A stretch of 34,321 nt of DNA, taken from an uncultured Lachnospiraceae bacterium. Lineage in GTDB: Bacteria; Bacillota; Clostridia; Lachnospirales; Lachnospiraceae. The DNA lies in assembly GCA_947626915.1 (NCBI GenBank), contig CANQUA010000036.1, positions 1 to 34,321 of the forward strand. Reading direction: 5' to 3'. Numbering within the stretch: the stretch's first letter is position 1; every line of letters begins with the position of its first letter. Shown here piece by piece: positions 2,523-34,321 of this stretch. Below the pieces are notes generated by a model, which saw only the letters and a program-made list of their open reading frames with translations, made no database searches and had not been told where the DNA came from. The translations under genes were made by a program, and so were the position numbers.

Positions 2523-2549
2523 TTGATTTTTTTTCTGGGGGGGTATACT
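2523..2549 (+). promoter_or_regulatory. G-tract promoter of the 2599 CW-repeat gene
   Basis: TTGATT (2523-2528) and TATACT (2544-2549) are separated by 15 bp made of a T run and then seven G (2537-2543) that abut the -10 box. The spacer is short for a sigma-A-type promoter, so the exact -35 is uncertain. The G run next to -10 matches the other surface-gene promoters in the window. Confidence 0.65.
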
Positions 2550-2598: not shown

Positions 2599-4011
2599 AT
2601 GAAACTGAAACGGGCTGTAAAAGAATGTCTGGCGATCCTGCTGAGCATGGCTTTACTGGCGCCTGCGATGTCGCTGACATCGTTGGCCGGGAGTGTGATC
2701 TTTAAGGAAGTTTTGGACGGCCGGGAGAGATTGTGGAAGATGGATCTGGATGCGGAAACAAATGCCGTGACGGTTGAGGAAGGCGATACGGTTGAGGTGC
2801 GGTTTATGGCGACCTTTTATATCGACACATCGACGCCGGGAGACGCTGCGGCCAGCTGGAGCAATGCAACGAGAGATTATTGGGAAACGGATCTGAATGC
2901 GTGGCATAAAATGTACGCCGAGGCGCAGGATGCAAATATTGCGGAGGTAGTAGACGTAGTCTGGACGGGCGAGTGGACCCAGGAAAATACTCCTGTCTTC
3001 AAAGTGATCGTCAGGGGTATATCCGCAGGAACAACCAGAATTGAATTACTGGAGGGAGACCAAAAGGCAGCTTCTTTTGAGGTAACGGTGACGGAGAAGA
3101 TAAAAGAATCGGAGAGCAGTTCCGGCGGCTCCGGCAGTTCCTCCGGCAGCTCTTCCGGCGGTTCCTCCGGCGGCGGTCAGAGGCCTTCTTCCGGCAGCTC
3201 CGGCACAGGCGGGAACACCGCGGCGGCAGCGGATGCGGCCATCCCGGAGGATCTCCCTGAATATGTAGTATCCGGAAACTGGAGCCAGAGCGAGGATGGA
3301 AATTGGAGATTTGTGGACTCTAACGGCAATGCCTGCGCCAACAGATGGGCGGCCATTTATAATCCGAACGCGGATCCGGCCTCAGGGCAGTCGGATTACG
3401 ACTGGTACTGGTTTGACGAGGCAGGAAATATGCTGACCGGATGGCATCTGGATGCGGACGGCAATTACTATTATTTGAATCCTGTGTCTGACGGGACCTT
3501 GGGAAAGATGATGACGGGCTGGATTCAGGACGGCGGCGAATGGTATTACTTAAGCCCGGAATCAGACGGCGCGAGGGGCCATATGGTGACCGGATGGGCG
3601 CAGGTCGACGGTCAGTGGTTTTATTTAAGCCCGGTCTCTGATGGTAAGAAGGGTCATATGATGACAGGCTGGATCCAGGACGGCGATCAATGGTATTATT
3701 TGAGCCCGGAATCGGACGGTACAAAAGGTCATATGGTAACGGGCTGGGTCCAGGACGGCGATCAGTGGTACTATCTGAGCCCGGAATCAGACGGTACAAA
3801 AGGCCATATGGTCACAGGCTGGGTGCAGATCAGCGGATCGTGGTACTATTTAAGTCCGCTTTCAGACGGCAGCAAGGGCCATATGGTCACAGGCTGGCAG
3901 CCCATCGGCGGCGTCTGGTACTATTTCGACGCGGTGAGCGGCCATATGCTGAACAATGCCCTAACGCCTGACGGCTATTGGGTCGGCGCGGACGGCGCGT
4001 GGGTAGGGTAA
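2599..4011 (+). CDS. Secreted cell-wall-binding protein with CW repeats
   Basis: This is a 470-residue protein, apparently exported. Residues 1-31 form a signal peptide (basic start, Leu/Ala core, ending TSLAGS). Residues 32-170 form a beta-rich domain that ends like an Ig-type module (ASFEVTVTE). Residues 171-208 are a Ser/Gly linker. From about residue 224 there are choline-binding-type CW repeats with the aromatic pattern GW-x-W-YYL. Five 25-residue units at residues 304-428 are nearly identical, a shorter sixth follows, and the protein ends with a YWVGADGAWVG cap. CW repeats attach proteins non-covalently to choline or other wall-polymer substituents. The function of the N-terminal domain is unknown. 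The start has the ribosome-binding site AAAGGAGAG just upstream. It is apparently monocistronic between the G-tract promoter and a terminator. Confidence 0.88.
   Translation: MKLKRAVKECLAILLSMALLAPAMSLTSLAGSVIFKEVLDGRERLWKMDLDAETNAVTVEEGDTVEVRFMATFYIDTSTPGDAAASWSNATRDYWETDLNAWHKMYAEAQDANIAEVVDVVWTGEWTQENTPVFKVIVRGISAGTTRIELLEGDQKAASFEVTVTEKIKESESSSGGSGSSSGSSSGGSSGGGQRPSSGSSGTGGNTAAAADAAIPEDLPEYVVSGNWSQSEDGNWRFVDSNGNACANRWAAIYNPNADPASGQSDYDWYWFDEAGNMLTGWHLDADGNYYYLNPVSDGTLGKMMTGWIQDGGEWYYLSPESDGARGHMVTGWAQVDGQWFYLSPVSDGKKGHMMTGWIQDGDQWYYLSPESDGTKGHMVTGWVQDGDQWYYLSPESDGTKGHMVTGWVQISGSWYYLSPLSDGSKGHMVTGWQPIGGVWYYFDAVSGHMLNNALTPDGYWVGADGAWVG
3508..3945 (+). repeat. 75-bp tandem repeats encoding CW units
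   Basis: Five units of exactly 75 bp (starting 3508, 3583, 3658, 3733, 3808) are followed by a 63-bp sixth unit. Most begin at a repeated CATATG. The high DNA identity allows unit gain or loss by recombination or slippage without breaking frame. Confidence 0.9.
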
Positions 4012-4664: not shown

Positions 4665-5237
4665 ATGAACGATCATGAATTACTGGAAGCAATGTTTGAG
4701 GCCATAACCGAGGTAAAATCCGAAATGACAGGCCTGAAGACCGAAGTGGCCGGAATGAGAGCCGAGATGGCTGTAATGAAAGCCGACATAGCCGACCTGA
4801 AGACCGAGATGGCAGGGGTGAAAGCCGACATAGCCGATCTGAAGAGTGAAGTAGCTGACATAAAGGCTGAGATGGCCGTAATGAAAGCCGACATAGCCGG
4901 CCTGAAGGACGAAGTGGCTGTAATGAAAGCCGACATAGCCGGCCTGAAGGACGAAGTGGCTGTAATGAAAGCCGACATAGCCGGCCTGAAGAGCGAAGTG
5001 GCCGATATAAAGACCGAGATGGCCGTAATGAAAGCCGACATAGAGACCCTGAAGGCTGACGTACAAAAGATTAATCTCCGATTAGAGAATGAAATTATGC
5101 CGCGTCTGAATACGATCGAATCTTGTTATGTCGATACATACAAGCGGTATGTATCGGAAACAAACGATATCCAGCAGCTGAAGATCGATGTAAGCGCGCT
5201 GAAAATTGCGGTATCGAAGTTAATTCAAACGGTATGA
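4665..5237 (+). CDS. Coiled-coil protein with 14-residue repeats
   Basis: This 190-residue protein has no signal peptide or membrane segment. Residues 1-135 are an almost unbroken coiled coil built of 14-residue units of the type VMKADIAGLKDEVA. In each unit hydrophobic residues fall at perfect 3-4 spacing, giving two heptads. The C-terminal 55 residues (containing MPRLNTIESCYVDTYKRY) break the repeat and look like the conserved tail of a small family seen in Lachnospiraceae, recalled rather than searched. The ribosome-binding site GAGAGGAAG precedes the ATG. Function is unknown; a rod-like oligomer, spacer or scaffold is the simplest inference. It sits alone among surface-protein genes and ends in its own terminator. 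Confidence 0.8.
   Translation: MNDHELLEAMFEAITEVKSEMTGLKTEVAGMRAEMAVMKADIADLKTEMAGVKADIADLKSEVADIKAEMAVMKADIAGLKDEVAVMKADIAGLKDEVAVMKADIAGLKSEVADIKTEMAVMKADIETLKADVQKINLRLENEIMPRLNTIESCYVDTYKRYVSETNDIQQLKIDVSALKIAVSKLIQTV
4875..5000 (+). repeat. 42-bp tandem repeats inside the coiled-coil gene
   Basis: Three 42-bp units (4875-4916, 4917-4958, 4959-5000) are nearly identical at DNA level. More diverged copies of the same 14-codon unit flank them from about 4770 to 5050. Each unit adds two heptads, so copy-number change would lengthen the rod in frame. Confidence 0.85.
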
Positions 5238-5409: not shown

Positions 5410-5437
5410 TTGACAGAATGTCTCGGGGGGGTAATAT
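5410..5437 (+). promoter_or_regulatory. G-tract promoter of the 5586 gene
   Basis: TTGACA (5410-5415) and TAATAT (5432-5437) are 16 bp apart; the last seven spacer bases (5425-5431) are G. A hairpin follows at the expected transcript start (5442-5449 with 5473-5478), leaving a leader of about 140 nt before the gene. Confidence 0.85.
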
Positions 5438-5585
5438 AAAGGTGCGCCGGGATGCGGACGGGAAAGGAGAAGCGGCGCGAAGCGGGGTCTTTCCCGGGGA
5501 AGCAAAGCATTGGCGGTGAGAAGGTTTTTTCAAATTGGCTGTTAATTTTTAACTGCCATGATTTTATCAAAAGGAGGATCGTAAG

Positions 5586-6653
5586 ATGAGGAGAGGCAAA
5601 AGGCTGGCGGCGGCGGTGGTATCCGCGTGCCTGACGCTGGGAAGCGTGACGACAGGCTGGGCGGCCTGGGAGTGGGACTGGAGCGATGAGAAGTATGGTG
5701 ACTATATTTCGGCTACGATGAAAAGCAGTGCGGAATACGTTACGGGACAGGCGGATGCCCAGGGGGAGATATTGACGCATGTGATAGAAATTTCTCATGT
5801 AGAAGATGGAGTTGACCGGCTGGGATATCCGAATTATAAAGAAATGAAGAATTACAGTGAGGAAGTTCTCCCTGTCTGGTATCTGAACAAGGAGGATCGT
5901 ATCTATATAATGGATCTGGAAGAAGGCGGCAGGATAATGGATCCGGAGTTTGCATATGAGTATGGCGGGTATGAGTATGGCGGGTCATATCCGGATCATT
6001 TCTGGAATGTTAAGTTTGATATTACCGGGGTGATTCCCGAAGCGGACGGCAGCGTTCAGGTTGCAGAAGGCAGCGAATGTGCAGGTATTTGTTTCGAAAC
6101 AGACGATGGCATGAATAAATTTTGGGATACGTGGAGTGAAGATGCGGGCGTAATTCTTGAGGAGGATTTGGCGTATTCCGCAGAAAATACGACGATTGTG
6201 ATTGATCCGATCTATCCAAAGCTGAAAGAGGCCGCGTCGGCGAAAGGGCATCAGCCGGAAGATTATGTATATTTGCTTGGAATCTCCTATCAGGATGTAG
6301 TGGTGGGTGCAGATGTAAGTTTTACTCCTGCGGTATTCATCCGCTTTAAAGAAGACGGAACCGCGGAAACGCCCGCTTCTTCCGCGCCCCGGACCGGCGT
6401 CTGGAAAGAAGATCAGACCGGCTGGTGGATCGCGTACCCGGACGACAGCTATTTAGTAAACGGCTGGTATCAGGATCCGGCCTCCGGCCTCTGGTACTAC
6501 ATGGGCGCGGACGGCTATATGCTGGAGAACCGGTGGCTGCAGGATCCGGGAAGCGGACTGTGGTATTATCTGGGAAACGGCGGAGCAATGCTGACGAGCG
6601 CGTATACGCCGGACGGATACTGGGTCGGTGCGAACGGCGTGTGGGTGAAGTAA
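5586..6653 (+). CDS. Secreted CW-repeat surface protein, paralogue 1 of 4
   Basis: This 355-residue exported protein has a signal peptide at residues 1-26 (MRRGK start, ending GWAA before WEWDW). Residues 27-255 are a divergent domain with family landmarks: SSAEYVTGQADAQGEIL near the start, VIPEADGSVQ in the middle and GHQPEDYVYLL near 221-231. The last 85 residues are CW-type wall-binding modules (GWWIAYPD, GLWYYMGADGYML, GLWYYLG) capped by YTPDGYWVGANGVWVK. I do not recognise the middle domain. It is likely held on the wall by the CW modules. AAGGAGG at 5571-5577 supports the start. No terminator is obvious between it and the next paralogue, so read-through is possible, although that paralogue has its own promoter. 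Confidence 0.85.
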   Translation: MRRGKRLAAAVVSACLTLGSVTTGWAAWEWDWSDEKYGDYISATMKSSAEYVTGQADAQGEILTHVIEISHVEDGVDRLGYPNYKEMKNYSEEVLPVWYLNKEDRIYIMDLEEGGRIMDPEFAYEYGGYEYGGSYPDHFWNVKFDITGVIPEADGSVQVAEGSECAGICFETDDGMNKFWDTWSEDAGVILEEDLAYSAENTTIVIDPIYPKLKEAASAKGHQPEDYVYLLGISYQDVVVGADVSFTPAVFIRFKEDGTAETPASSAPRTGVWKEDQTGWWIAYPDDSYLVNGWYQDPASGLWYYMGADGYMLENRWLQDPGSGLWYYLGNGGAMLTSAYTPDGYWVGANGVWVK

Positions 6654-6721
6654 AGACTATGGGGGCAGTGCTGGCCATCGCCTTTTAGCCATCTGAGAAA
6701 TGAAGAAATCTCATAAAAAGA

Positions 6722-6749
6722 TTGACAGAAAGCCGCGGGGGGGTAATAT
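6722..6749 (+). promoter_or_regulatory. G-tract promoter of the 6837 gene
   Basis: TTGACA (6722-6727), a 16-bp spacer ending in seven G (6737-6743), and TAATAT (6744-6749). The GTGCGCCG arm (6754-6761) pairs with CGGCGCGC (6787-6794) at the predicted 5' end of the RNA. Confidence 0.87.
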
Positions 6750-6836
6750 GAAAGTGCGCCGGGAATGCAGACGGGAAAGGGGCCGGCGGCGCGCAAACGG
6801 GTCCTTTTCCTCCAAAATAAACAGGAGGGTAATACA

Positions 6837-7850
6837 ATGAGACGGAGAAAAATATTGGCGGCGGTGATGACCGCATGTTTAGCAATGGGAAGCGTGACGA
6901 CAGGCTGGGCGGCCTGGGAGTGGAGCGATACGGTATTCTATTATTCGGCTACGATGGAAAGCAGTACGGAATACTTTACGGGGCAGGCAGTTGCCCAGGG
7001 GGAGGTGCTGGCGCATGTTACAGTGGCGGATTATGAAGGACACAAGAATTACAGAGAGGAAGTTCTTCCTGTTTGTTATCTGAACAAGGAGGATGGAATT
7101 TATATAATGGATCTGTCAAAACAAGGAGAGATTTTTGATGGATCACGTCGGGACAACGGATTTAACTCTTTTTACAAAGTTGAGTTTAGTATTACCGGGG
7201 TGATTCCCGAAGAGGATGGCAGTGTTCGAATTAGAGAAGGAGGCGACGAGACGGTAGCAGGTATTTTTTTTGCAACAAACGATGGCGAGTTTCGATGGGT
7301 TTATTCAGACAACGCTGGTGGATGGGTTCTTTCAGTAGAAGATACGGATGCGATCTGTGAAGAGGATCTGGAGTATTCCGAAGAAAATACGACAATTATG
7401 ATCGAACCGTTTTATTCAAAGCTCAGAGAGGTCGCGTTGGCGAAAGGGCATCAGCCGGAAGACTATGTGTATTTGCTGGAAATGTATCATAGAAATCGGG
7501 AGGGTGTAGGGAATCCGTTTATTCCTAAGATATTCATCCGCTTTGCGGAAGACGGAACCGCGGAAACGCCGGTTTCTTCCGCGCCCCGGACCGGCGTCTG
7601 GAAAGAAGACCGGATCGGCTGGTGGATCGCGTATCCGGACGGCAGTTACCTGGTAAACGGCTGGTATCAGTCGCCGGAATCCGGACTCTGGTACTACATG
7701 GGCGCGGACGGCTATATGCTGGAGAATCGGTGGCTGCAAGATCCGGGAAGCGGACTGTGGTATTATCTGGGAAACGGCGGAGCGATGCTGACGAGCGCGT
7801 ATACGCCGGACGGATACTGGGTCGGCGCGGACGGCGTGTGGGCGCAGTAA
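6837..7850 (+). CDS. Secreted CW-repeat surface protein, paralogue 2 of 4
   Basis: The true start is the ATG at 6837, seven bases after AGGAGGG (6823-6829), giving 337 residues; the frame is open further upstream, but that part lies in the promoter leader. A signal peptide covers residues 1-26. The middle domain (27-235) keeps the landmarks TEYFTGQAVAQGEVL, VIPEEDGSVR and GHQPEDYVYLL but differs strongly elsewhere from its neighbours. Residues 253-337 are CW wall-binding modules almost identical to those of the other three paralogues. It is followed by a terminator-like hairpin at 7919-7956. Function beyond wall attachment is unknown. Confidence 0.85.
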   Translation: MRRRKILAAVMTACLAMGSVTTGWAAWEWSDTVFYYSATMESSTEYFTGQAVAQGEVLAHVTVADYEGHKNYREEVLPVCYLNKEDGIYIMDLSKQGEIFDGSRRDNGFNSFYKVEFSITGVIPEEDGSVRIREGGDETVAGIFFATNDGEFRWVYSDNAGGWVLSVEDTDAICEEDLEYSEENTTIMIEPFYSKLREVALAKGHQPEDYVYLLEMYHRNREGVGNPFIPKIFIRFAEDGTAETPVSSAPRTGVWKEDRIGWWIAYPDGSYLVNGWYQSPESGLWYYMGADGYMLENRWLQDPGSGLWYYLGNGGAMLTSAYTPDGYWVGADGVWAQ

Positions 7851-7914
7851 AACAGATTTTGAAAAAGGCGGTCTGTTTGGTCGGAAATTCACATAGTATA
7901 TAGTTTATGCTTAT

Positions 7915-8187
7915 AAAGGGGGATGCCTGCCTTGAAGGGTTGGCGTCTCCTTTTTTGGTAATCGGAAAGGCGCCTGCTCTAAAGATTTTTCATTTTTTTG
8001 CAAGGGAAAAGGCACGTGTCCTAAAGGCTTGTCATTTTTTGCTTTGGAATGGGGAAGCACTTGCCTTGAAGATTTGACATTTTCTTTATTTGTAATGAGC
8101 AAGGCGACCGCCTTGAAAGTTTAGCATCTTTCTTTTTGAAATGAAAAAGTGCCTGCTTAAAAAGCGTGCCCTTTTTTGATAATGCGG
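7915..8187 (+). repeat. Tandem array of six terminator-derived repeats
   Basis: Six imperfect units of about 40-51 bp start near 7915, 7966, 8006, 8053, 8100 and 8146. Each runs: A/G-rich lead, a motif like GGCxCCTGCCTTGAAG, a GxCATC-like half, a T run, then GAAATG or GATAATG. Only the first clearly keeps terminator pairing; the others have drifted. A single equivalent unit follows the next paralogue at 9405-9441. It fills most of the 530-base gap between the two genes. Confidence 0.65.
7919..7956 (+). terminator. Intrinsic terminator of the 6837 gene
   Basis: GGGGATGCC (7919-7927) pairs with GGCGTCTCC (7942-7950) over nine positions with two G-U pairs, followed by six T (7951-7956). It is the first unit of the repeat array at 7915-8187. 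Confidence 0.8.
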
Positions 8188-8463
8188 AGGATATCTGCTT
8201 TGTTTTATTTAAGGAAAAGATCTGCCATCGCCTTTTAACCGTCTGAGGAATGAAGAAATCTCATAAAAAGATTGACAGAAAGCCGCGGGGGGGTAATATG
8301 AAAGTGCGCCGGGTATACAGACGGAAAGGGGACGGCGGCGCAAAAAACAGCCTTTTCCGGCAGACCATAGGAGGGTAATAGGATGAGACGAGGCAAAATG
8401 CTGGCGGCGGCGGTGGTATCCGCGTGCCTGACGCTGGGAAGCATGACGACAGGCTGGGCGGCC
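8171..8463 (+). repeat. 293-bp direct repeat, copy A (copy B at 9435-9727)
   Basis: The block from the end of the terminator repeat, through promoter and leader, to the end of the signal-peptide coding region is repeated 1264 bp downstream with only a handful of substitutions and no gaps. It marks a recent duplication or gene conversion between paralogues 3 and 4. Confidence 0.92.
8272..8299 (+). promoter_or_regulatory. G-tract promoter of the 8383 gene
   Basis: TTGACA (8272-8277), a 16-bp spacer ending in seven G (8287-8293), and TAATAT (8294-8299). The leader hairpin pairs 8305-8311 with 8336-8342. Confidence 0.87.
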
Positions 8464-9330
8464 ATGGAGTGGGATGAGATGGATATGTATAATGCTTACG
8501 GCTATGAAAGCACAGTGATGAGTGCTACGGAGTATTTCACAGGTCAGGCGGACGATCAGGGCGAGATACTGGTACACCTTACGGAAACATCCTGGGACGG
8601 AGTCACTAAGAGTGAAAGAGATGAGTATGTCCCGGTTCTGTATCTTAATAAGGATGATACTATTTATCTGAAAAATCTTAAAGTGCATAGTTTATTTGGC
8701 TGGCTGGATGTGAGCGAATTTTATCCCAGTGTCGGTATTTACGGCACCCTTCCGGAAGCAGATGGCAGCGTTCAGTGTTATTCCAGAAGATATATGGATG
8801 GTACGAACGGGATAGCGTTTGAGACAAGCGCGTTTGAGATTGTGCTTGATGGCCATTCAGAGGATACAACATGGGTTGCAGAGTCGCCTTATACGAAAGT
8901 GAAAGAAGCCGCGTTGGCCCAGGGGCATCAGCCGGAAGACTATGTATATTTGTTATATATATGGTCAGAGACTCCGACAGATTATAGTTCGGCTCCCATG
9001 TGGCTGATCCGCTTCGCAGGAGAAAGTTCTGCGGAGATGCCGGTAGATTCTGTGTCCTCTGCCGCGCCGGCCGGTGCGTGGAAAAGCGACAGTAAAGGCT
9101 GGTGGATCGCGTACCCGGACGGCAGTTACCTGGTAAACGGCTGGTATCAGTCGCCGGAATCCGGACTCTGGTACTACATGGGCGCGGACGGCTATATGCT
9201 GGAGAACCAGTGGCTGTGCGACCCGGGAAGCGGACTGTGGTACTATCTGGGAAGCGGCGGAGCGATGCTGACGAGTGCGTATACGCCGGACGGATACTGG
9301 GTCGGCGTGGATGGCGTGTGGGCACAGTAA
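8383..9330 (+). CDS. Secreted CW-repeat surface protein, paralogue 3 of 4
   Basis: This 315-residue exported protein starts after AGGAGGG (8369-8375). The signal peptide covers residues 1-26 (ends GWAA). The middle domain at residues 27-215 has the landmarks SATEYFTGQADDQGEIL, TLPEADGSVQ and GHQPEDYVYLL and is otherwise divergent; it is the shortest middle of the four. CW modules fill residues 232-315, with the GAWKSDSKGWWIAYPDGS variant at their start. The DNA of the signal peptide and CW ends is nearly the same as in the neighbours, while the middle is not. Its own terminator follows. Function beyond likely wall attachment is unknown. Confidence 0.85.
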   Translation: MRRGKMLAAAVVSACLTLGSMTTGWAAMEWDEMDMYNAYGYESTVMSATEYFTGQADDQGEILVHLTETSWDGVTKSERDEYVPVLYLNKDDTIYLKNLKVHSLFGWLDVSEFYPSVGIYGTLPEADGSVQCYSRRYMDGTNGIAFETSAFEIVLDGHSEDTTWVAESPYTKVKEAALAQGHQPEDYVYLLYIWSETPTDYSSAPMWLIRFAGESSAEMPVDSVSSAAPAGAWKSDSKGWWIAYPDGSYLVNGWYQSPESGLWYYMGADGYMLENQWLCDPGSGLWYYLGSGGAMLTSAYTPDGYWVGVDGVWAQ

Positions 9331-9404
9331 AAACAGATTTTGGAAAAGGCGGTCTCTTTGACCGGGAATTTAGATAGTAAATACATAGGATATGCTTATA
9401 AAGA

Positions 9405-9441
9405 GAGATGCCTGCTTTGAAAGGTTGGCATCTTCTTTTTT
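9405..9441 (+). terminator. Intrinsic terminator of the 8383 gene
   Basis: AGATGCC (9406-9412) pairs with GGCATCT (9427-9433), extended by a G-U pair, and is followed by six T at 9436-9441. Its sequence matches the repeat unit of the 7915-8187 array. Confidence 0.8.
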
Positions 9442-9727
9442 GATAATGCGGAGAATATCTGCTTTGTTTTATTTAAGGAAAAGATCTGCCATCGCCTTTT
9501 AACCGTCTGAGGAATGAAGAAATCTCATAAAAAGATTGACAGAAAGCCGCGGGGGGGTAATATGAAAGTGCGCCGGGTATACAGACGGAAAGGGGACGGC
9601 GGCGCAAAAAACAGCCTTTTCCGGCAGACCAAAGGAGGGTAATAGGATGAGACGAGGCAAAATGCTGGCGGCGGCGGTGGTATCCGCGTGCCTGACGCTG
9701 GGAAGCGTGACGGCAGGCTGGGCGGCC
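9435..9727 (+). repeat. 293-bp direct repeat, copy B (copy A at 8171-8463)
   Basis: Offset from copy A is exactly 1264 bp throughout, so no insertions or deletions have accumulated. It carries promoter, leader hairpin, ribosome-binding site and signal-peptide codons. Confidence 0.92.
9536..9563 (+). promoter_or_regulatory. G-tract promoter of the 9647 gene
   Basis: TTGACA (9536-9541), a 16-bp spacer ending in seven G (9551-9557), and TAATAT (9558-9563). The leader hairpin pairs 9569-9575 with 9600-9606. Confidence 0.87.
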
Positions 9728-10648
9728 TGGGAGTGGGAAGATAACACCATAAAAACCACGATGAAGAGCAGTACGGAATATGCGACAGGTCAGGCGGACG
9801 CCCAGGGCGAGATACTGGTGCGTGTCAATGAGTGGAAAAGAACGGAGCAGATTGGAGTCGACATCATGGGAAATCCGATGTGGAACGGCGTTTGGGAGGA
9901 GAGCGGTCAGAAGACCTATCCGGTTGGATATCTTCGCCCGGAGGATGGCATTTACCTGGAGGATCTGATGATTGTGGACCCAAGGGTGAGACACTATGGG
10001 GGAGGAGAGGTTTGGTTGTCTCTTGATGAATTAGAGGTTAGAGAGGTTTATCTTGACGGGGTCATTCCGGAAGAGGACGGCAGCGTCTGCTGCCAGGACC
10101 TTGAAGGGGTAGAGGGATTTTATGGCCTTTCTTTTGTTAATGATTCAGCGCCAACAATTCACATTTCCAACCTGGAGTTTTCGCAAGGCGATACGTCTGT
10201 CAGTATAGACGCGTTTTATCCGAAGGTGAAAGAAGCTGCCCTGGCTGCCGGACATCAGCCGGAGGAATATGTGTTTTTGCTGACTGTATGGATGGAAGTG
10301 GACGTGTCTCAGGAAAACGTGTCCCGGGTATTTATCCGCTTCACGGACGACGGAACCGCGGAAACGCCTGCTTCTTCCGTGCCCCGGACGGGCGTGTGGA
10401 AAGAAGATCAGACCGGCTGGTGGATCGCGTATCCGGACGGCAGTTACCTGGTAAACGGCTGGTATCAGTCGCCGGAATCCGGATTCTGGTACTACATGGG
10501 CGCGGACGGCTATATGCTGGAGAACCGGTGGCTGCAGGATCCGGGAAGCGGTCTGTGGTACTATCTGGGAAACGGCGGAGCGATGCTGACGGGCGCGTAT
10601 ACGCCGGACGGATACTGGGTCGGTGCGAACGGAGTGTGGGCGCAGTAG
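9647..10648 (+). CDS. Secreted CW-repeat surface protein, paralogue 4 of 4
   Basis: This 333-residue exported protein has a good ribosome-binding site (AGGAGGG) upstream. A signal peptide covers residues 1-26. The middle domain at residues 27-235 has the landmarks SSTEYATGQADAQGEIL, VIPEEDGSVC and GHQPEEYVFLL; it contains an insertion near residues 60-85 not seen in the shorter paralogues. Residues 249-333 are CW wall-binding modules ending YWVGANGVWAQ. It is the last of the tandem set and is followed by a GC-rich terminator. The middle domain is not recognised. Confidence 0.85.
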   Translation: MRRGKMLAAAVVSACLTLGSVTAGWAAWEWEDNTIKTTMKSSTEYATGQADAQGEILVRVNEWKRTEQIGVDIMGNPMWNGVWEESGQKTYPVGYLRPEDGIYLEDLMIVDPRVRHYGGGEVWLSLDELEVREVYLDGVIPEEDGSVCCQDLEGVEGFYGLSFVNDSAPTIHISNLEFSQGDTSVSIDAFYPKVKEAALAAGHQPEEYVFLLTVWMEVDVSQENVSRVFIRFTDDGTAETPASSVPRTGVWKEDQTGWWIAYPDGSYLVNGWYQSPESGFWYYMGADGYMLENRWLQDPGSGLWYYLGNGGAMLTGAYTPDGYWVGANGVWAQ

Positions 10649-28449: not shown

Positions 28450-28686
28450 AGTTGAAATGTTTGTGCGTCCTGGGATGTGCGACAATTCTTACTTTCTTTG
28501 AACCTACATTGTGACAGAAGGGATTCCAATATTTTCCGTCGGATGTCAGGCCTCAGCAACTACCAGTGGAAGGCAGAAGTCGGAGTGCGGTTGCCCACCT
28601 AGCTTGGCTAGGCGTCAAATAGTAAGAACCGGCATTTTGGGATTTACAAAAGAGAAAAGCAGCGAGAAATCGCTGCTTTTTGTTTT
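28450..28686 (+). ncRNA. ssrS: Probable 6S RNA
   Basis: This is a non-coding unit with its own promoter and terminator. The ends form the closing stem of 6S RNA: TCCTGGGATGT (about 28469-28479) pairs with GCATTTTGGGA near 28632-28642, like the CTGAGATGT/GGCATCTC closing stem of E. coli. Inside it, TTCTTACT pairs with AGTAAGAA (28620-28627) and TTTGA with TCAAA to continue a rod, and GCCT/AGGC closes the tip. 6S RNA mimics an open promoter and holds the housekeeping RNA polymerase in stationary phase. Assignment is by recalled family features; the exact ends are estimates, with the mature RNA probably ending before the terminator stem. Confidence 0.75.
28655..28686 (+). terminator. Intrinsic terminator of the 6S RNA unit
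   Basis: AAAAGCAGCG (28655-28664) pairs perfectly with CGCTGCTTTT (28671-28680) around AGAAAT, then TGTTTT. Confidence 0.92.
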
Positions 28687-30041: not shown

Positions 30042-32321
30042 ATGAAAGAAAAGAAAGGCATCGGGTGGATACTCGGAGTTCCGCTTGTGGTCGTGCTTCT
30101 GGTGCTGATTATCCTGTGGAACGAACCGGAACGAGATGGGATATCCAGGGCTGTTGCTTACAAGGCGGCGGCCCTTTCTTTAACGACGGCCGACGTATGC
30201 AGGGAGGAGGCGAAAACGCAGCAGTCCTTTTTTGCCGCGGCGGACCAGAAGCAATGGTACGTGAAATATATGGATTATCTCTACCGGAACCAGATGATTT
30301 CCCGGGAGCTGACCCCGCCGGGCGCGGAGGAGGCGGAGAACATGCTGACGTATGAGGAGGCTTCCTATCTGGCGGAGAGGCTGCTGGGGCAGGCCGGACA
30401 GGAGAAAGCGTCCGATTTGATCCGGATGAACCGGCGCAACCGCACCAGGCCGTTCCCGGAGGAACAGTGGTGGTATCTCTATGAATTGTTCCGGCAGGAG
30501 AGCGAGGAAGGACGGCAGGTGACGGAAGAGGTCCTGCAGATCTACTCCACGCCGGACGATGCAGAGGAGACGGTTCCCTGGACCGCTCATACCGATCAGG
30601 GGCTTTACGGATTTGAGGGACTGGGACTGTCCCGTTATCTGGACCGGGAAATCCGGGTGCTTCAGAAAGACGGGGAGCTGATCCGGGTCATGGAGAAGGT
30701 TTCCGACGCCGTCGTTTACCGCAATGTCTGGATCCTGGAGGCCCAAAAGAAGCAGCTATCCGGGTATTCGGGCGAATTTGCCCGTACGTTTGCCGTGGAG
30801 AAGAAGCTGAAAAAGCCGGAGGAGCTGCAGAACCAGCTGGCGGATCTCTATCTTTCGAAAGGAGAAGTGGAACGGGTCGTTTTGAAACAGGAAAAGCTGA
30901 CGGCGAAGGTGCTGGCGGTGCGGGAAGACGCCGTCGAGCTGGAAGGGTACGGTCCGGTGCCGCTGGATGTGAATTTTAACGTATATAAGACTTACGGCAC
31001 GTTTGAACGCCAGGATCTTTCGAGGATTCTGGTGGGATACGACGCCCAGGAATTTATCGTGGCGGACGGAAAGCTGTGCGCGGCGCTGATCGTCCGGAGC
31101 TGCGGCGCGGACCGGATCCGCGTGATGATCATGGACAATGGGTTCCATTCCGCGTTCCATCAGAAGCTCGAGCTGGAATTTCTCTGCGACGGCGTGATGA
31201 CTCAGGGCGATACGGAAACCGGCTTTCAGAAGGGCGACACGCTGGTTCTGGCGGCCGGGGACGGGATACTGGAAAACGGGCGGCTGATCCTGACGCCCTC
31301 GGATCAGAGCCAGGGGATCCGGGTAATGTCTCTTTCACGCAGCCAGGGGACGCCGGTCTATGAGGGCAGGCTGGAGATCGTGGAGGATACGGAAGGGCTG
31401 ATCCTGGTCAATGAGCTTTATCTGGAGGATTATCTGAAACAGGTGATCCCCAGCGAGATGCCGGGCAGTTATGAGAAGGAGGCCCTGAAGGCCCAGGCTG
31501 TCTGCGCCAGGACCTACGCCTGCCGTCAGATCCGCGGCAATACCTACCGGCAGTACGGGGCGCATGTGGACGACAGCACCCGGTTCCAGGTATATAATAA
31601 CGGGGAGAGCAGCGCCAGAACCCGGGAAGCGGTAGACGAGACCTACGGAGAATGTCTGATGTACGAAGGGGATGTGGCGGAGGCGTATTATTTTTCCACT
31701 TCCTGCGGCCATACGACCAACGCGGCCGTCTGGGGCTCCGATCCGCTGAAGCTGCCGTATCTGACTGCGAAAGCAGTGCGGGAATCGGGGGGAAGCATGG
31801 ACCTGACCGATAACGCCGTCTTCTCGGAATACATAAAAGGAAGCGGGAGCGGCTTCGAGACGGAGTTTTCCATGTTCCGCTGGAGCACGAAGCTGACCAG
31901 CAAAACGCTGGAGCAGAAGATCCCGGATCTGGGCACGATCCGGAAACTGACCATAAAGGAGCGGGGAGCAGGCGGTATCGCCAGGGTCCTGGCGGTGGAA
32001 GGGACAGACGGAAGCAGGGAATTTACGGGCGAATCCCGGATCCGTTCGCTGCTGGGCGACGGCGGCGGGGAAATCCGCACCAACGGCGGCGGGACGGTGA
32101 CCGGCTGGACCTCGCTTCCCAGCGCGTTCATTGCCATTGAAAGCAGCGGCCCCGACAGCAGCGGAGTGACGACTTTTACGATCTACGGCGGCGGTTACGG
32201 CCACGGCGTGGGCATGAGCCAGAATGCGGCCCAGGCCATGGCGAAAAAGGGCTGGACGTACCGGGAGATCCTGGACTTTTTCTATAAAGGAACCACAGTG
32301 GAGGATATCTACGGGGAGTAG
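30042..32321 (+). CDS. Membrane-anchored SpoIID/LytB-domain protein
   Basis: This 759-residue protein has one N-terminal membrane anchor (about residues 8-26) and a large extracytoplasmic part. Residues 27-430 are a family-specific region with no motif I recognise. A SpoIID domain occupies about 435-755: YLKQVIPSEMPGSYEKEALKAQAV near 463-486 with the Glu of PSEMP as the expected catalytic residue, AYYFSTSCGHT near 547-557, and YGGGYGHGVGMSQNAAQAMA near the end. SpoIID cuts glycan strands during engulfment; long versions like this are often vegetative wall enzymes or amidase enhancers. It is probably co-transcribed with the AI-2E-family gene. The last ten codons are also present in a duplicated block at 34081. 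Confidence 0.9.
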   Translation: MKEKKGIGWILGVPLVVVLLVLIILWNEPERDGISRAVAYKAAALSLTTADVCREEAKTQQSFFAAADQKQWYVKYMDYLYRNQMISRELTPPGAEEAENMLTYEEASYLAERLLGQAGQEKASDLIRMNRRNRTRPFPEEQWWYLYELFRQESEEGRQVTEEVLQIYSTPDDAEETVPWTAHTDQGLYGFEGLGLSRYLDREIRVLQKDGELIRVMEKVSDAVVYRNVWILEAQKKQLSGYSGEFARTFAVEKKLKKPEELQNQLADLYLSKGEVERVVLKQEKLTAKVLAVREDAVELEGYGPVPLDVNFNVYKTYGTFERQDLSRILVGYDAQEFIVADGKLCAALIVRSCGADRIRVMIMDNGFHSAFHQKLELEFLCDGVMTQGDTETGFQKGDTLVLAAGDGILENGRLILTPSDQSQGIRVMSLSRSQGTPVYEGRLEIVEDTEGLILVNELYLEDYLKQVIPSEMPGSYEKEALKAQAVCARTYACRQIRGNTYRQYGAHVDDSTRFQVYNNGESSARTREAVDETYGECLMYEGDVAEAYYFSTSCGHTTNAAVWGSDPLKLPYLTAKAVRESGGSMDLTDNAVFSEYIKGSGSGFETEFSMFRWSTKLTSKTLEQKIPDLGTIRKLTIKERGAGGIARVLAVEGTDGSREFTGESRIRSLLGDGGGEIRTNGGGTVTGWTSLPSAFIAIESSGPDSSGVTTFTIYGGGYGHGVGMSQNAAQAMAKKGWTYREILDFFYKGTTVEDIYGE

Positions 32322-32541
32322 GAGGCGCGCCGCGCGTTTTCCGGAGGACGTGCCGCCAGAGAGAAAAGCGGTTCCGCAAAAACGGCGGGATTTGCGGTTC
32401 TTTTCTCCATTTGCGGCTTTTTCAGAAAATGCGGAAGCAAAAAGAAGCGGGATCCCGCGGAATAAAGGAATAAAGGAATCGAATCATCCGCATTTGTCTC
32501 AGAAACGGTAAAAACCGGTTGACAGAACCGCTTCCGGGGGG
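32291..32541 (+). repeat. Duplicated block, copy 1 (copy 2 at 34081-34320)
   Basis: From the last ten codons of the SpoIID-domain gene through the terminator region to the G tract of the next promoter, the sequence recurs at 34081-34320 with high identity and a few gaps, including a 10-bp AATAAAGGAA tandem present only in copy 1. Confidence 0.9.
32361..32407 (+). terminator. Hairpin after the SpoIID-domain gene
   Basis: GAGAAAAG (32361-32368) pairs with CTTTTCTC (32400-32407) and CCGCAAA (32374-32380) with TTTGCGG (32391-32397), around an internal loop. It is terminator-like, with the T-rich strand in the stem rather than clearly after it. Confidence 0.55.
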
Positions 32542-32547
32542 TAAACT
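32519..32547 (+). promoter_or_regulatory. G-tract promoter of the YD-repeat gene
   Basis: TTGACA (32519-32524), a 17-bp spacer ending in six G (32536-32541), and TAAACT (32542-32547). One fewer G and one more spacer base than the paralogue promoters. Confidence 0.85.
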
Positions 32548-32599
32548 AAACCCATCAAATACGCAGAGACGGTTCTGCCGGGAGAAAGGATGGGGATCT

Positions 32600-33877
32600 A
32601 TGAGAAAGAAGCTTATGACGGCGGCCCTTACGCTGACGGCGGCCCTGACGGCTGCCATGACAGCGGCGGCGGCCGGACAATGGCAGGGAGGTTACGGTAC
32701 CGGCTGGTGGTGGCAGTATGACGACGGCAGCTGGCCGAGCAGCAAATGGGAGTGGCTGGACGGCAACGGGGACGGCGTGGAGGAATGCTATTATTTCGAC
32801 GCGGCCGGGTGGCTTTTGACGGACACGACGACGCCGGATGGCTACACAGTGGACGCCGACGGCAGATGGACGGTAAACGGAGAGGTGCAGAAGCGGACTG
32901 CGGCGGCCCGGACAGCTGACGACGGTACGACAATTGAACGGCTGGTGATCGAAACGTATTATGGCCCGGATGGCCGCCTGGAACGTTGGTATGAGTACGA
33001 ATACGACGCCTGCGGAAACAGGGCAGCGGCGGCGTGTTATGATTCGGACGGTAACGAGGCCATGTGGTTTGTATACGAATATGACGAGTTTGGAAACAAT
33101 ACGAAAACGACGACTTATGATTCGGAGGGCAAGCTGTTCAGCTGGGATGAAAACGAATACGACGACTGCGGGAACCTGATTAAACGGAACAGCAGCGACG
33201 GCCTTTGGCGTGAATACGAATACGACGCCTCCGGCAACCTGATCAAAGAAATATATAAGTATTCCGGTTTTGGTGGTTCAGGAGTAACCCGGAATGAATA
33301 CGAATACGACGCCTCCGGAAACAAAATCAAAACGACGACTTATAACCATTTGGATGGCAGCCTGAAAAGCCGGGAGGAAACGGAATACGACGCTTCCGGG
33401 AATAAAATCAAAACGGTGCATTACGGCTCGGACGGCAGCCCAGGCGCTCGGGATGAATACGAATACGACGCATTCGGCAACAATACCAAAGAGACGAGGT
33501 TTGGCCCGGATGGCAGCGTATGGGATTGGAAGGAAAGAGAATACGACGCTGCCGGGAATATGATTAAAGAAACCCGCGGCTATGGTTCGGATGGCCGTGA
33601 AAATCCCTATACCGTATACGAATACAACGCCTCCGGAAATAAAATCAAAGAGACGAGCTATAACGTATCCGGCGGCGTGGAGTCTGAACGCAGCTATGAC
33701 GCCTTCGGACACGAAACAAAATTTGTTTTTTATGATTCGGATGGCAATGTGTTCAGCTGGCATGAACACGAATACGACGCCTTCGGAAACCTGATCCAAG
33801 AAGCCGAGGGTTATGGCACGGATGGGAGCGTGGCCTCCCGTATCGTATACGGATACGAGACTGTATCGGTAAAATAA
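32600..33877 (+). CDS. Secreted YD/RHS-like repeat protein with CW-type N-terminal module
   Basis: The start at 32600 follows GGAGAAAGG; codons upstream overlap the promoter. The 425-residue protein has an Ala/Thr-rich signal peptide (residues 1-27). Next comes one aromatic CW-type module (about 30-92: GWWWQYDDGSWP, CYYFDAAGWLL, TTPDGYTVDADGRW). Then about eleven repeats of 20-25 residues follow at 110-420 with the core EYDASGNKIK-T-Y-SDG. This Y-D-x-x-GN pattern matches YD (RHS) repeats, which form beta-rich shells or rods. No toxin domain, protease site or RHS core end is present, and at 425 residues it is far shorter than true RHS toxins. It is probably a wall-attached, elongated surface protein. 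Confidence 0.8.
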   Translation: MRKKLMTAALTLTAALTAAMTAAAAGQWQGGYGTGWWWQYDDGSWPSSKWEWLDGNGDGVEECYYFDAAGWLLTDTTTPDGYTVDADGRWTVNGEVQKRTAAARTADDGTTIERLVIETYYGPDGRLERWYEYEYDACGNRAAAACYDSDGNEAMWFVYEYDEFGNNTKTTTYDSEGKLFSWDENEYDDCGNLIKRNSSDGLWREYEYDASGNLIKEIYKYSGFGGSGVTRNEYEYDASGNKIKTTTYNHLDGSLKSREETEYDASGNKIKTVHYGSDGSPGARDEYEYDAFGNNTKETRFGPDGSVWDWKEREYDAAGNMIKETRGYGSDGRENPYTVYEYNASGNKIKETSYNVSGGVESERSYDAFGHETKFVFYDSDGNVFSWHEHEYDAFGNLIQEAEGYGTDGSVASRIVYGYETVSVK

Positions 33878-34077: not shown

Positions 34078-34080
34078 TTT

Positions 34081-34320
34081 AACCGCGGCGGAGAATATCT
34101 GCGGGGAGTAGGGGGCGCCGCGCGTTTTCCGGGGAACGGACCTCCGAAGAGAAAAACGGTTCCGCGAAAACGGCGGGATTTGCGGTTCTTTTCTTAATTT
34201 GCGGCTTTTTCGGAAAATGCGGAAGCAAAAAGAGGTGGGATCCCGCGGAATAAAGGAATCGAATCATCCACATTTATCTCAGAAACAATAAAAACCGGTT
34301 GACAAACAAGGTTGGGGGGG
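34081..34320 (+). repeat. Duplicated block, copy 2 (copy 1 at 32291-32541)
   Basis: It repeats the tail of the SpoIID-domain gene, including its TAG at 34109-34111, then the intergenic hairpins and the next promoter, up to the window edge. Coding context for the SpoIID tail is missing here, so the tail is a fossil of the duplication. Confidence 0.9.
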
Positions 34321-34321
34321 T
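34299..34321 (+). promoter_or_regulatory. G-tract promoter cut by the window edge
   Basis: TTGACA (34299-34304), then a spacer whose last seven bases (34314-34320) are G, then the T that would begin the -10 box. Spacer length would be 16. It predicts another surface-protein gene just outside the window. Confidence 0.75.

Follow-up and report, generated by a model that had tools for sequence, protein, structure and literature searches.

Why should a run of six or seven G residues close the spacer of one promoter after another, directly against the -10 box, in front of genes for exported proteins with cell-wall (CW)-type modules? The question is raised by a stretch of 34,321 nucleotides (hereafter the window) from an uncultured Lachnospiraceae bacterium (GenBank assembly GCA_947626915.1, contig CANQUA010000036.1, here C36), for which a first-pass annotation had listed seven such promoters and had offered two readings of the tract, either phase variation through changes in tract length or a fixed recognition element for a regulator or sigma factor, both leading to a surface-protein regulon. 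After a computational survey of the window, of its genome and of related and more distant genomes, we found that the poly-G spacer promoters are a real and recurrent class associated with exported proteins. Transcriptional phase variation of the porA, fetA and tp0126 kind is probably the best explanation overall, and differences in G-run length between close copies suggest that such bacteria may randomly switch surface proteins on and off.

Using the pattern TTGAYW-N(8-14)-G5-TAnnnT, we recovered exactly six complete promoters in the window, while 100 dinucleotide shuffles of the window gave no match at all (mean 0.00, maximum 0). On the + strand, these are TTGATT-N8-G7-TATACT at 2523..2549 (spacer 15 bp, tract 2537-2543), TTGACA-N9-G7-TAATAT at 5410..5437 (spacer 16 bp, tract 5425-5431), a single 28-bp sequence repeated without change at 6722..6749, 8272..8299 and 9536..9563 (spacer 16 bp, tracts 6737-6743, 8287-8293 and 9551-9557), which together with the promoter at 5410 forms one tandem array, and TTGACA-N11-G6-TAAACT at 32519..32547 (spacer 17 bp, tract 32536-32541). 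The seventh, TTGACA-N9-G7-T at 34299..34321 on the same strand (tract 34314-34320), is truncated where the window, and with it the contig, ends. The claim of seven promoters with G6-7 touching the -10 box was thus borne out, six of them being complete and one cut at the edge. In every case the homopolymer lies between -35 and -10, as in porA, and adjoins the -10 box. Runs of G6 are under-represented in the window (15 positions against a shuffle mean of 45), and all 6 of its 6 G7 runs lie inside poly-G spacer promoters. Since three of the array promoters are identical, and since 34299 repeats the sequence that precedes 32519 (85% over 234 bp), the seven represent about four independent lineages. 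The duplicated intergenic and promoter region spans 32290-32550 and 34080-34321, and the contig ends in the second copy right after the G-run. Contig ends were also seen near such promoters on C10 of the same genome, on C57 and C84 of genome G085 and on C89 of genome G293, and therefore assemblies may break there.

All six genes visible downstream, on the + strand like their promoters, encode cell-wall/choline-binding repeats and a signal-peptide-like N-terminus (judged by eye), in agreement with the prediction that the window promoters drive exported CW-module proteins; the product of promoter 34299 lies off the contig. Promoter 2523 stands before a gene for an exported-type protein of 470 amino acids with choline-binding/CW repeats (2599..4011; PF19127, PF01473, PF19085). 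The array promoters at 5410, 6722, 8272 and 9536 precede, in this order, genes for exported-type CW-repeat proteins of 355 (5586..6653; PF19085), 337 (6837..7850), 315 (8383..9330) and 333 (9647..10648) amino acids, all four being paralogues with 59-69% identity to the first one. Promoter 32519 is followed by a gene for an exported-type protein of 425 amino acids with one CW repeat plus RHS/DUF2963 repeats (32600..33877).

The census was then extended to the whole genome (G000; 3.18 Mb, 107 contigs), in which all 58 runs of seven or more G (G7+) were listed, their contexts (57 distinct) were read and promoter type was assigned by reading. Promoter-type context was found for 13 of the 58 runs, and together with two G6 members (32519 and C10:65852) the genome holds 15 poly-G spacer promoters, 12 of them with an exported-type protein downstream. 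The tract lies against the -10 box in 10 of the 15, namely the seven of the window together with C10:65852, C80:2540 and C92:2297 (a CW-type match lies downstream of the C92 promoter, its start not clear). In the other five, by reading, it lies elsewhere in the spacer: C4:15838 and C46:466 read TTGACATTC-G7-TANGR-TATAAT with a spacer of 15, C13:49916 and C50:22835 have a spacer of 16 by reading, and C23:19583 carries G8 with an ambiguous -10. Apart from this ambiguous case, the spacers of the genome stay at 15-17 bp whether the tract adjoins -35 or -10. The remaining G7+ tracts are mostly coding-looking, some of them in glycine-rich lipoprotein starts (by eye). Two short lipoprotein-like genes of this genome, L125 on C24 and L150 on C106, have near-identical upstream regions with tracts of G7 and G9 and no obvious TTGACA.

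This census also corrects the first-pass annotation on one point. The tract had been said to mark all the surface-protein genes, a generalization drawn from the window alone. The genome contains 54 PF19085 matches, which we grouped by place and frame into about 43 open reading frames (ORFs), and a poly-G promoter stands before about 11 of these (six in the window, those on C80, C10 and C92, and, by distance, those on C4 and C23). When 30 loci were read, no tract of G6 or longer was found within 300 bp upstream of any of the 13 other PF19085 genes with a placeable start; a G5 run occurs within that distance in 3 of the 13, in one case (L322) within a promoter-like spacer.

Recurrence was examined by pattern scans, for which reversed patterns served as controls. 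Among the 26 genomes of the window's genus, TTGAC-N(3-25)-G7-TAnnnT gave 29 matches, in 13 genomes, against 0 for the reversed controls, 7 of the 29 belonging to the short-prefix subclass. The 60 genomes of the genus of G085 gave 57 matches in 29 genomes, again against 0. Across 397 Lachnospiraceae genomes, TTGAC...G8+TAnnnT yielded 67 matches and not a single reversed control; the matches fall in 45 genomes, representing 43 of 334 genera. One further scan gave 13 matches against 1 reversed control. The early scans stopped at spacers of 18-19 bp and the later ones were widened. Tracts over the class range from 6 to 11 G, with one of 21; this last, about twice the usual length, lies between TTGACA and TAAACT upstream of a lipoprotein-like gene (L393; G738:C47:12754-12793). 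Outside the family, a scan of the phylum for G7 with a spacer of 14-18 bp was positive in 7 of 393 genomes (9 matches, the controls giving 2); its sample also included four other genomes of the family, all without a match. At comparable spacing (up to 18 bp), G7+ was counted by hand in 17 of 250 family genomes. The family thus has the class about four times as often as the genomes outside it, without being its only host, and restriction to the family was accordingly rejected. A scan of named genomes, limited to spacers of 17-19 bp and giving names, not rates, returned at least 118 stretches (L194-L311), and among the matches listed were G9+ examples from Mediterraneibacter, Schaedlerella, Blautia, gut Bacilli, Streptococcus, Gemella, Treponema, Moraxella, Helicobacter and others. 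The cultured Lachnospiraceae Schaedlerella arabinosiphila, Mediterraneibacter agrestimuris and Blautia luti are among the bearers of such a promoter.

Could these matches be background, or operators of another kind, in which the G-run abutting TA belongs to a CsoR-type metal regulator? Some G5-G6 matches are indeed palindromes of the form TACCC...GGGTA upstream of CsoR-like genes (L097, L099 and L162, by eye), and with G5 patterns the controls are large (31 matches against 17 controls, and about 43 controls by hand count in a second scan), which counts against any extension of the class to so short a tract. In contrast, the window promoters lack the C half of the palindrome, the products differ, and in the two genus scans and the family scan at G7-G8 and longer the reversed controls stand at zero, which, with the shuffles of the window, excludes chance for G7+. 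We therefore consider this explanation most improbable. The CsoR operator identity was rejected for the window promoters, and the G5 matches were rejected as class members; in addition to their large controls, their products look like background (exported-like in 6 of 18 with a placed ORF, from 31 matches). The C-run/G-run palindromes before CsoR-like genes represent another promoter class that mimics the poly-G class in pattern scans. The existence of a distinct promoter class, as had been claimed, is thus supported by the genome and its relatives: it is above chance at G7+ and appears again in sister species and in many genera.

In order to see what these promoters drive, export was called by one crude signal-peptide rule, applied both to the targets and to the other ORFs of the same loci, with duplicates removed and with four loci that repeat earlier ones excluded. 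In the window's genus (own genome excluded), 12 of 14 targets were exported-like against 3 of 27 other ORFs; the corresponding figures were 23/29 against 10/42 in the genus of G085, 15/24 against 12/36 in a first sample of other genera (a weak difference, p = 0.025), 23/35 against 9/45 in a second, family sample, and 48/64 against 84/314 in the named genomes, for which 80 of the 118 stretches were used here and in reading downstream genes. Targets in which no start followed a ribosome-binding-like site had been dropped (2/16, 3/32, 4/28, 5/40 and 16/80). Altogether, with the named-genome part resting on 80 of 118 stretches and with samples that share some genomes, 121 of 166 targets were exported-like against 118 of 464 other ORFs of the same loci. 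A Pfam scan of 30 targets identified CW repeats, RHS/DUF2963, BspA-type leucine-rich repeats, WG repeats, a beta-helix repeat and a dCache sensor, and no Pfam domain in 16 of the 30, many of which are cut at the locus end.

By this simple rule most of the targets, not all, have a surface-exposed product, and the surface-protein regulon can be retained in part: the link to exported proteins stands, while some products are not exported and the claim for all surface genes falls. The non-exported targets include, by eye, ABC-transporter ATPases, GTPase-like and GGDEF-like proteins and a NusG-like protein. Similar GGDEF-like targets (by eye) recur in two genera, behind G7 in L027 (G004:C159) and G10 in L378 (G759:C31). 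Poly-G promoters also stand upstream of the NusG-like protein (L391, G738:C1) and of a capsule-locus-phosphatase-like protein (L024, G019:C161), both by eye, which hints at a possible poly-G control of surface polysaccharide loci as well.

The tract has a marked strand polarity. In the same 397 family genomes the poly-C mirror pattern gave 3 matches against 2 controls, compared with 67 against 0 for poly-G. When the tract was allowed anywhere in the spacer before TATAAT, at least 12 G and at least 3 C runs of eight or more were counted (GC-only octamers, by eye, among the matches listed), and thus poly-C is used sometimes and hardly ever against the -10 box. From this strong preference for G over C it follows that the tract is not neutral filler. 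A G adjoining the -10 box can help sigma through an extended -10-like contact, and, because poly-C against the -10 is nearly absent, the polarity probably reflects such a helpful G; the alternative is a factor that reads G.

Tract and spacer lengths differ between the two genera studied most closely. In that of the window the tract is 7 in 24, 8 in 4 and 9 in 1 of the 29 matches, and the spacer mode is 16 bp (15 of 22 matches outside the short-prefix kind). In that of G085, tallied on the 56 matches of an earlier scan, tracts are mostly 9-11 and the spacer mode is 19 bp (28/56), the prefix (the adjoining part of the spacer) and the tract often summing to this number as 9+10 (11/56) or 10+9 (14/56); when longer spacers were allowed, only three were found at 20-21 bp. 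Family-wide, the G8+ spacers are mainly 16-20 bp, also with a mode of 19. If 17 bp is the best distance, as reported for tp0126 (PMC7864442), most promoters of the present genome would be one G short and many in the genus of G085 two Gs long. A distance of one or two slips from the optimum would be attractive for a switch, yet an optimum that is shifted when the spacer is rich in G would agree with it too.

Evidence for lability of the tract came from homologous promoters, compared in pairs with phage loci excluded and all 118 named-genome stretches included; pairs inside one cluster are not independent. Of 6 pairs with aligned flanks at least 90% alike, 4 have tracts of unequal length and 0 have prefixes of unequal length; of 17 pairs at 80-90%, the tract differs in 8 and the prefix in 3. 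Examples are promoter 8272 of the window, G7, and its G8 homologue in a sister species (L036 of G020; 96% over 281 aligned bp), and the homologues of G295 and G291, with G11 and G10 and 500 bp of flank without a gap. Viral contigs carry the design as well: two identical ones and a third whose tract is interrupted come from a single phage, and a further three belong to another family. Two contigs of the former phage, 99.7% identical over 7.3 kb, have spacers of 16 bp (G12) and 19 bp (an interrupted 15-nucleotide tract), and their alignment contains two gap openings totalling 3 nucleotides, the size of the spacer difference. In this phage (L183, L185 and L312) the G12 spacer promoter stands upstream of a gene whose product looks like an HNH-type protein (by eye).

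These observations can be joined into a porA-like mechanism. The promoters are of the housekeeping-sigma type (TTGACA / TAnnnT), with a coding-strand G run in the spacer that usually ends at the -10 box; replication slippage at this run would add or remove one G, the altered distance between -35 and -10 would change the rate of RNA polymerase binding, and individual cells would then express differing subsets of cell-wall-bound and other exported proteins. Three parts of this picture are inferred: tract length varies inside a species, such variation affects transcription, and both take place in the window's species. For the poly-G class as a whole we judge phase variation to be probable; for the G7 promoters of this genome it is plausible and unproven, at slightly less than an even chance.

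Several observations weigh against phase variation or against so tight a link to exported proteins. G7 is short for frequent slippage, and in the window's species and genus the tract is both short and nearly constant: all four array promoters are G7, and two short-prefix loci of the genome, matched by eye in G020, retain G7 there. In the 8272/G020 pair the whole 200 bp upstream aligns poorly (71%, 7 gaps), and the phage spacers differ by an interrupted tract, not by a pure gain of G. Among pairs less than 80% alike the contrast is small (of 21 pairs, 15 differ in tract and 11 in prefix), and of 17 promoter clusters the tract varies in 12 and the prefix also in 8. The polarity of 67 to 3 is not predicted by slippage alone, and the 19-bp mode in the genus of G085 exceeds 17, which would mean that the promoter is off in most of the cells sequenced, that the optimum itself is shifted, or that another constraint on length operates. 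As for the products, about a quarter of the targets elsewhere are not exported-like, the C46 promoter of this genome lies upstream of an ABC-transporter ATPase gene, and at C50:5044 a G7 run directly before TATAAT, with no clear -35, stands upstream of a housekeeping-type pyridoxal-phosphate-enzyme gene (by eye).

Part of this record is what an ordinary regulon would leave, in which a regulator or sigma factor reads G6-7 against the -10 box and tract length is constant. The near-constant tract and 16-bp spacer of the window's genus, the coding-strand polarity and the frequent sum of 19 in the genus of G085 all agree with such a fixed element. Over the family, however, tract length is not constant, since it ranges from 6 to 11 (one of 21) and differs between closely similar homologues; the tract can also lie 3 bp from the -35 and 5 bp from the -10 box, and at G8+ the design is common to 43 genera. 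A fixed element therefore appears unlikely to us for the class, while keeping some claim for the window's own species. A more modest account gives the tract no dynamic role, G-rich spacers having been inherited and spread by duplication of surface genes, with slight strengthening by G at the -10 and otherwise drift. Several of the window promoters are indeed plain duplicates, and the near absence of poly-C against the -10 is expected if G there helps sigma; but the design is carried by different proteins across many genera, runs of 9-11 G go beyond the need of an extended -10 contact, and, among the matches listed, G runs still outnumber C runs where the tract is free to stand at any point of the spacer. 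We regard this account as improbable. Of the two readings offered by the first-pass annotation, phase variation is thus the better one for the class, by the range of tract lengths, their lability between close homologues and the position of the tract at either end of the spacer, and the dominance of G7 in the window's own genus is where it is weakest.

A bolder form of the phase-variation reading is possible, and we hold it only tentatively, as rather doubtful. Lachnospiraceae, together with scattered host-associated bacteria from other groups, may carry genome-wide contingency promoters of a single design, TTGACA, about 9 nucleotides, coding-strand poly-G and TAnnnT, that stochastically recombine the surface; the G-run would at the same time be a G-specific part of the promoter, for which poly-C would be no substitute against the -10 box, and the functional spacers would be of unusual length, 18-19 bp with G9-10, for example through packing of the G-run into a shorter, differently twisted helix.

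Two other features of the window are recorded here. At 4665-5237, immediately upstream of the CW gene array, a 190-amino-acid protein of repeated coiled-coil-like units is encoded, and 6S RNA (RF00013, 62.6 bits) lies at 28464-28647 on the + strand, no other Rfam match of the window reaching the curated cut-off.

Phase variation in gut bacteria has been discussed mostly as DNA inversion. If the present reading is true, many common gut commensals would vary lipoproteins, cell-wall and other exported proteins by single-base slippage; deep-sequencing reads that already exist would show it, and it would bear on colonisation, phage resistance and immune recognition. No published description of a poly-G promoter class in Lachnospiraceae was found within a partial coverage of the literature.

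Among known promoter types, the C-run/G-run palindrome, which we take to be the CsoR-type operator motif, resembles the present class in the G5-G6 next to the -10 box in some matches, and differs from the window promoters in being palindromic. Extended -10 promoters (TGn) have a G just upstream of the -10 box on the coding strand, a position alike to that found here, whereas the present promoters carry a run of 6-11 G without a TG motif as such and keep a near-consensus -35. In Bordetella fim a promoter homopolymer, poly-C, controls the expression of a surface protein. The fim tract, like those of Neisseria fetA and opc, is the mirror of the present class, in which poly-C against the -10 box is nearly absent. 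At fetA (PMC5320596) and opc (PMC7864442) too, a promoter homopolymer controls a surface protein. The same papers make poly-G spacer phase variation a known kind: in PMC7864442 the porA and tp0126 promoters are described with a poly-G stretch separating -35 from -10, the best length being 17 nucleotides, and PMC5320596 describes the fetA and porA tracts, with a table in which a G7/G8 tract is marked as varying in one of two passaged-culture columns; poly-A/T tracts in coding genes are treated in PMC2831843. In Treponema pallidum, an unrelated organism, poly-G likewise occurs in promoters of exported proteins, tp0126 and tpr, the tp0126 tract lying in the spacer with the best transcription at 17 nucleotides (PMC7864442). 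Closest in arrangement is Neisseria meningitidis porA, whose sigma-70 promoter has a poly-G spacer; there one locus has reported steps of expression with tract length, whereas here many loci per genome, in a Gram-positive family and with a shorter tract (7 in the window's genus), are known from sequence alone.

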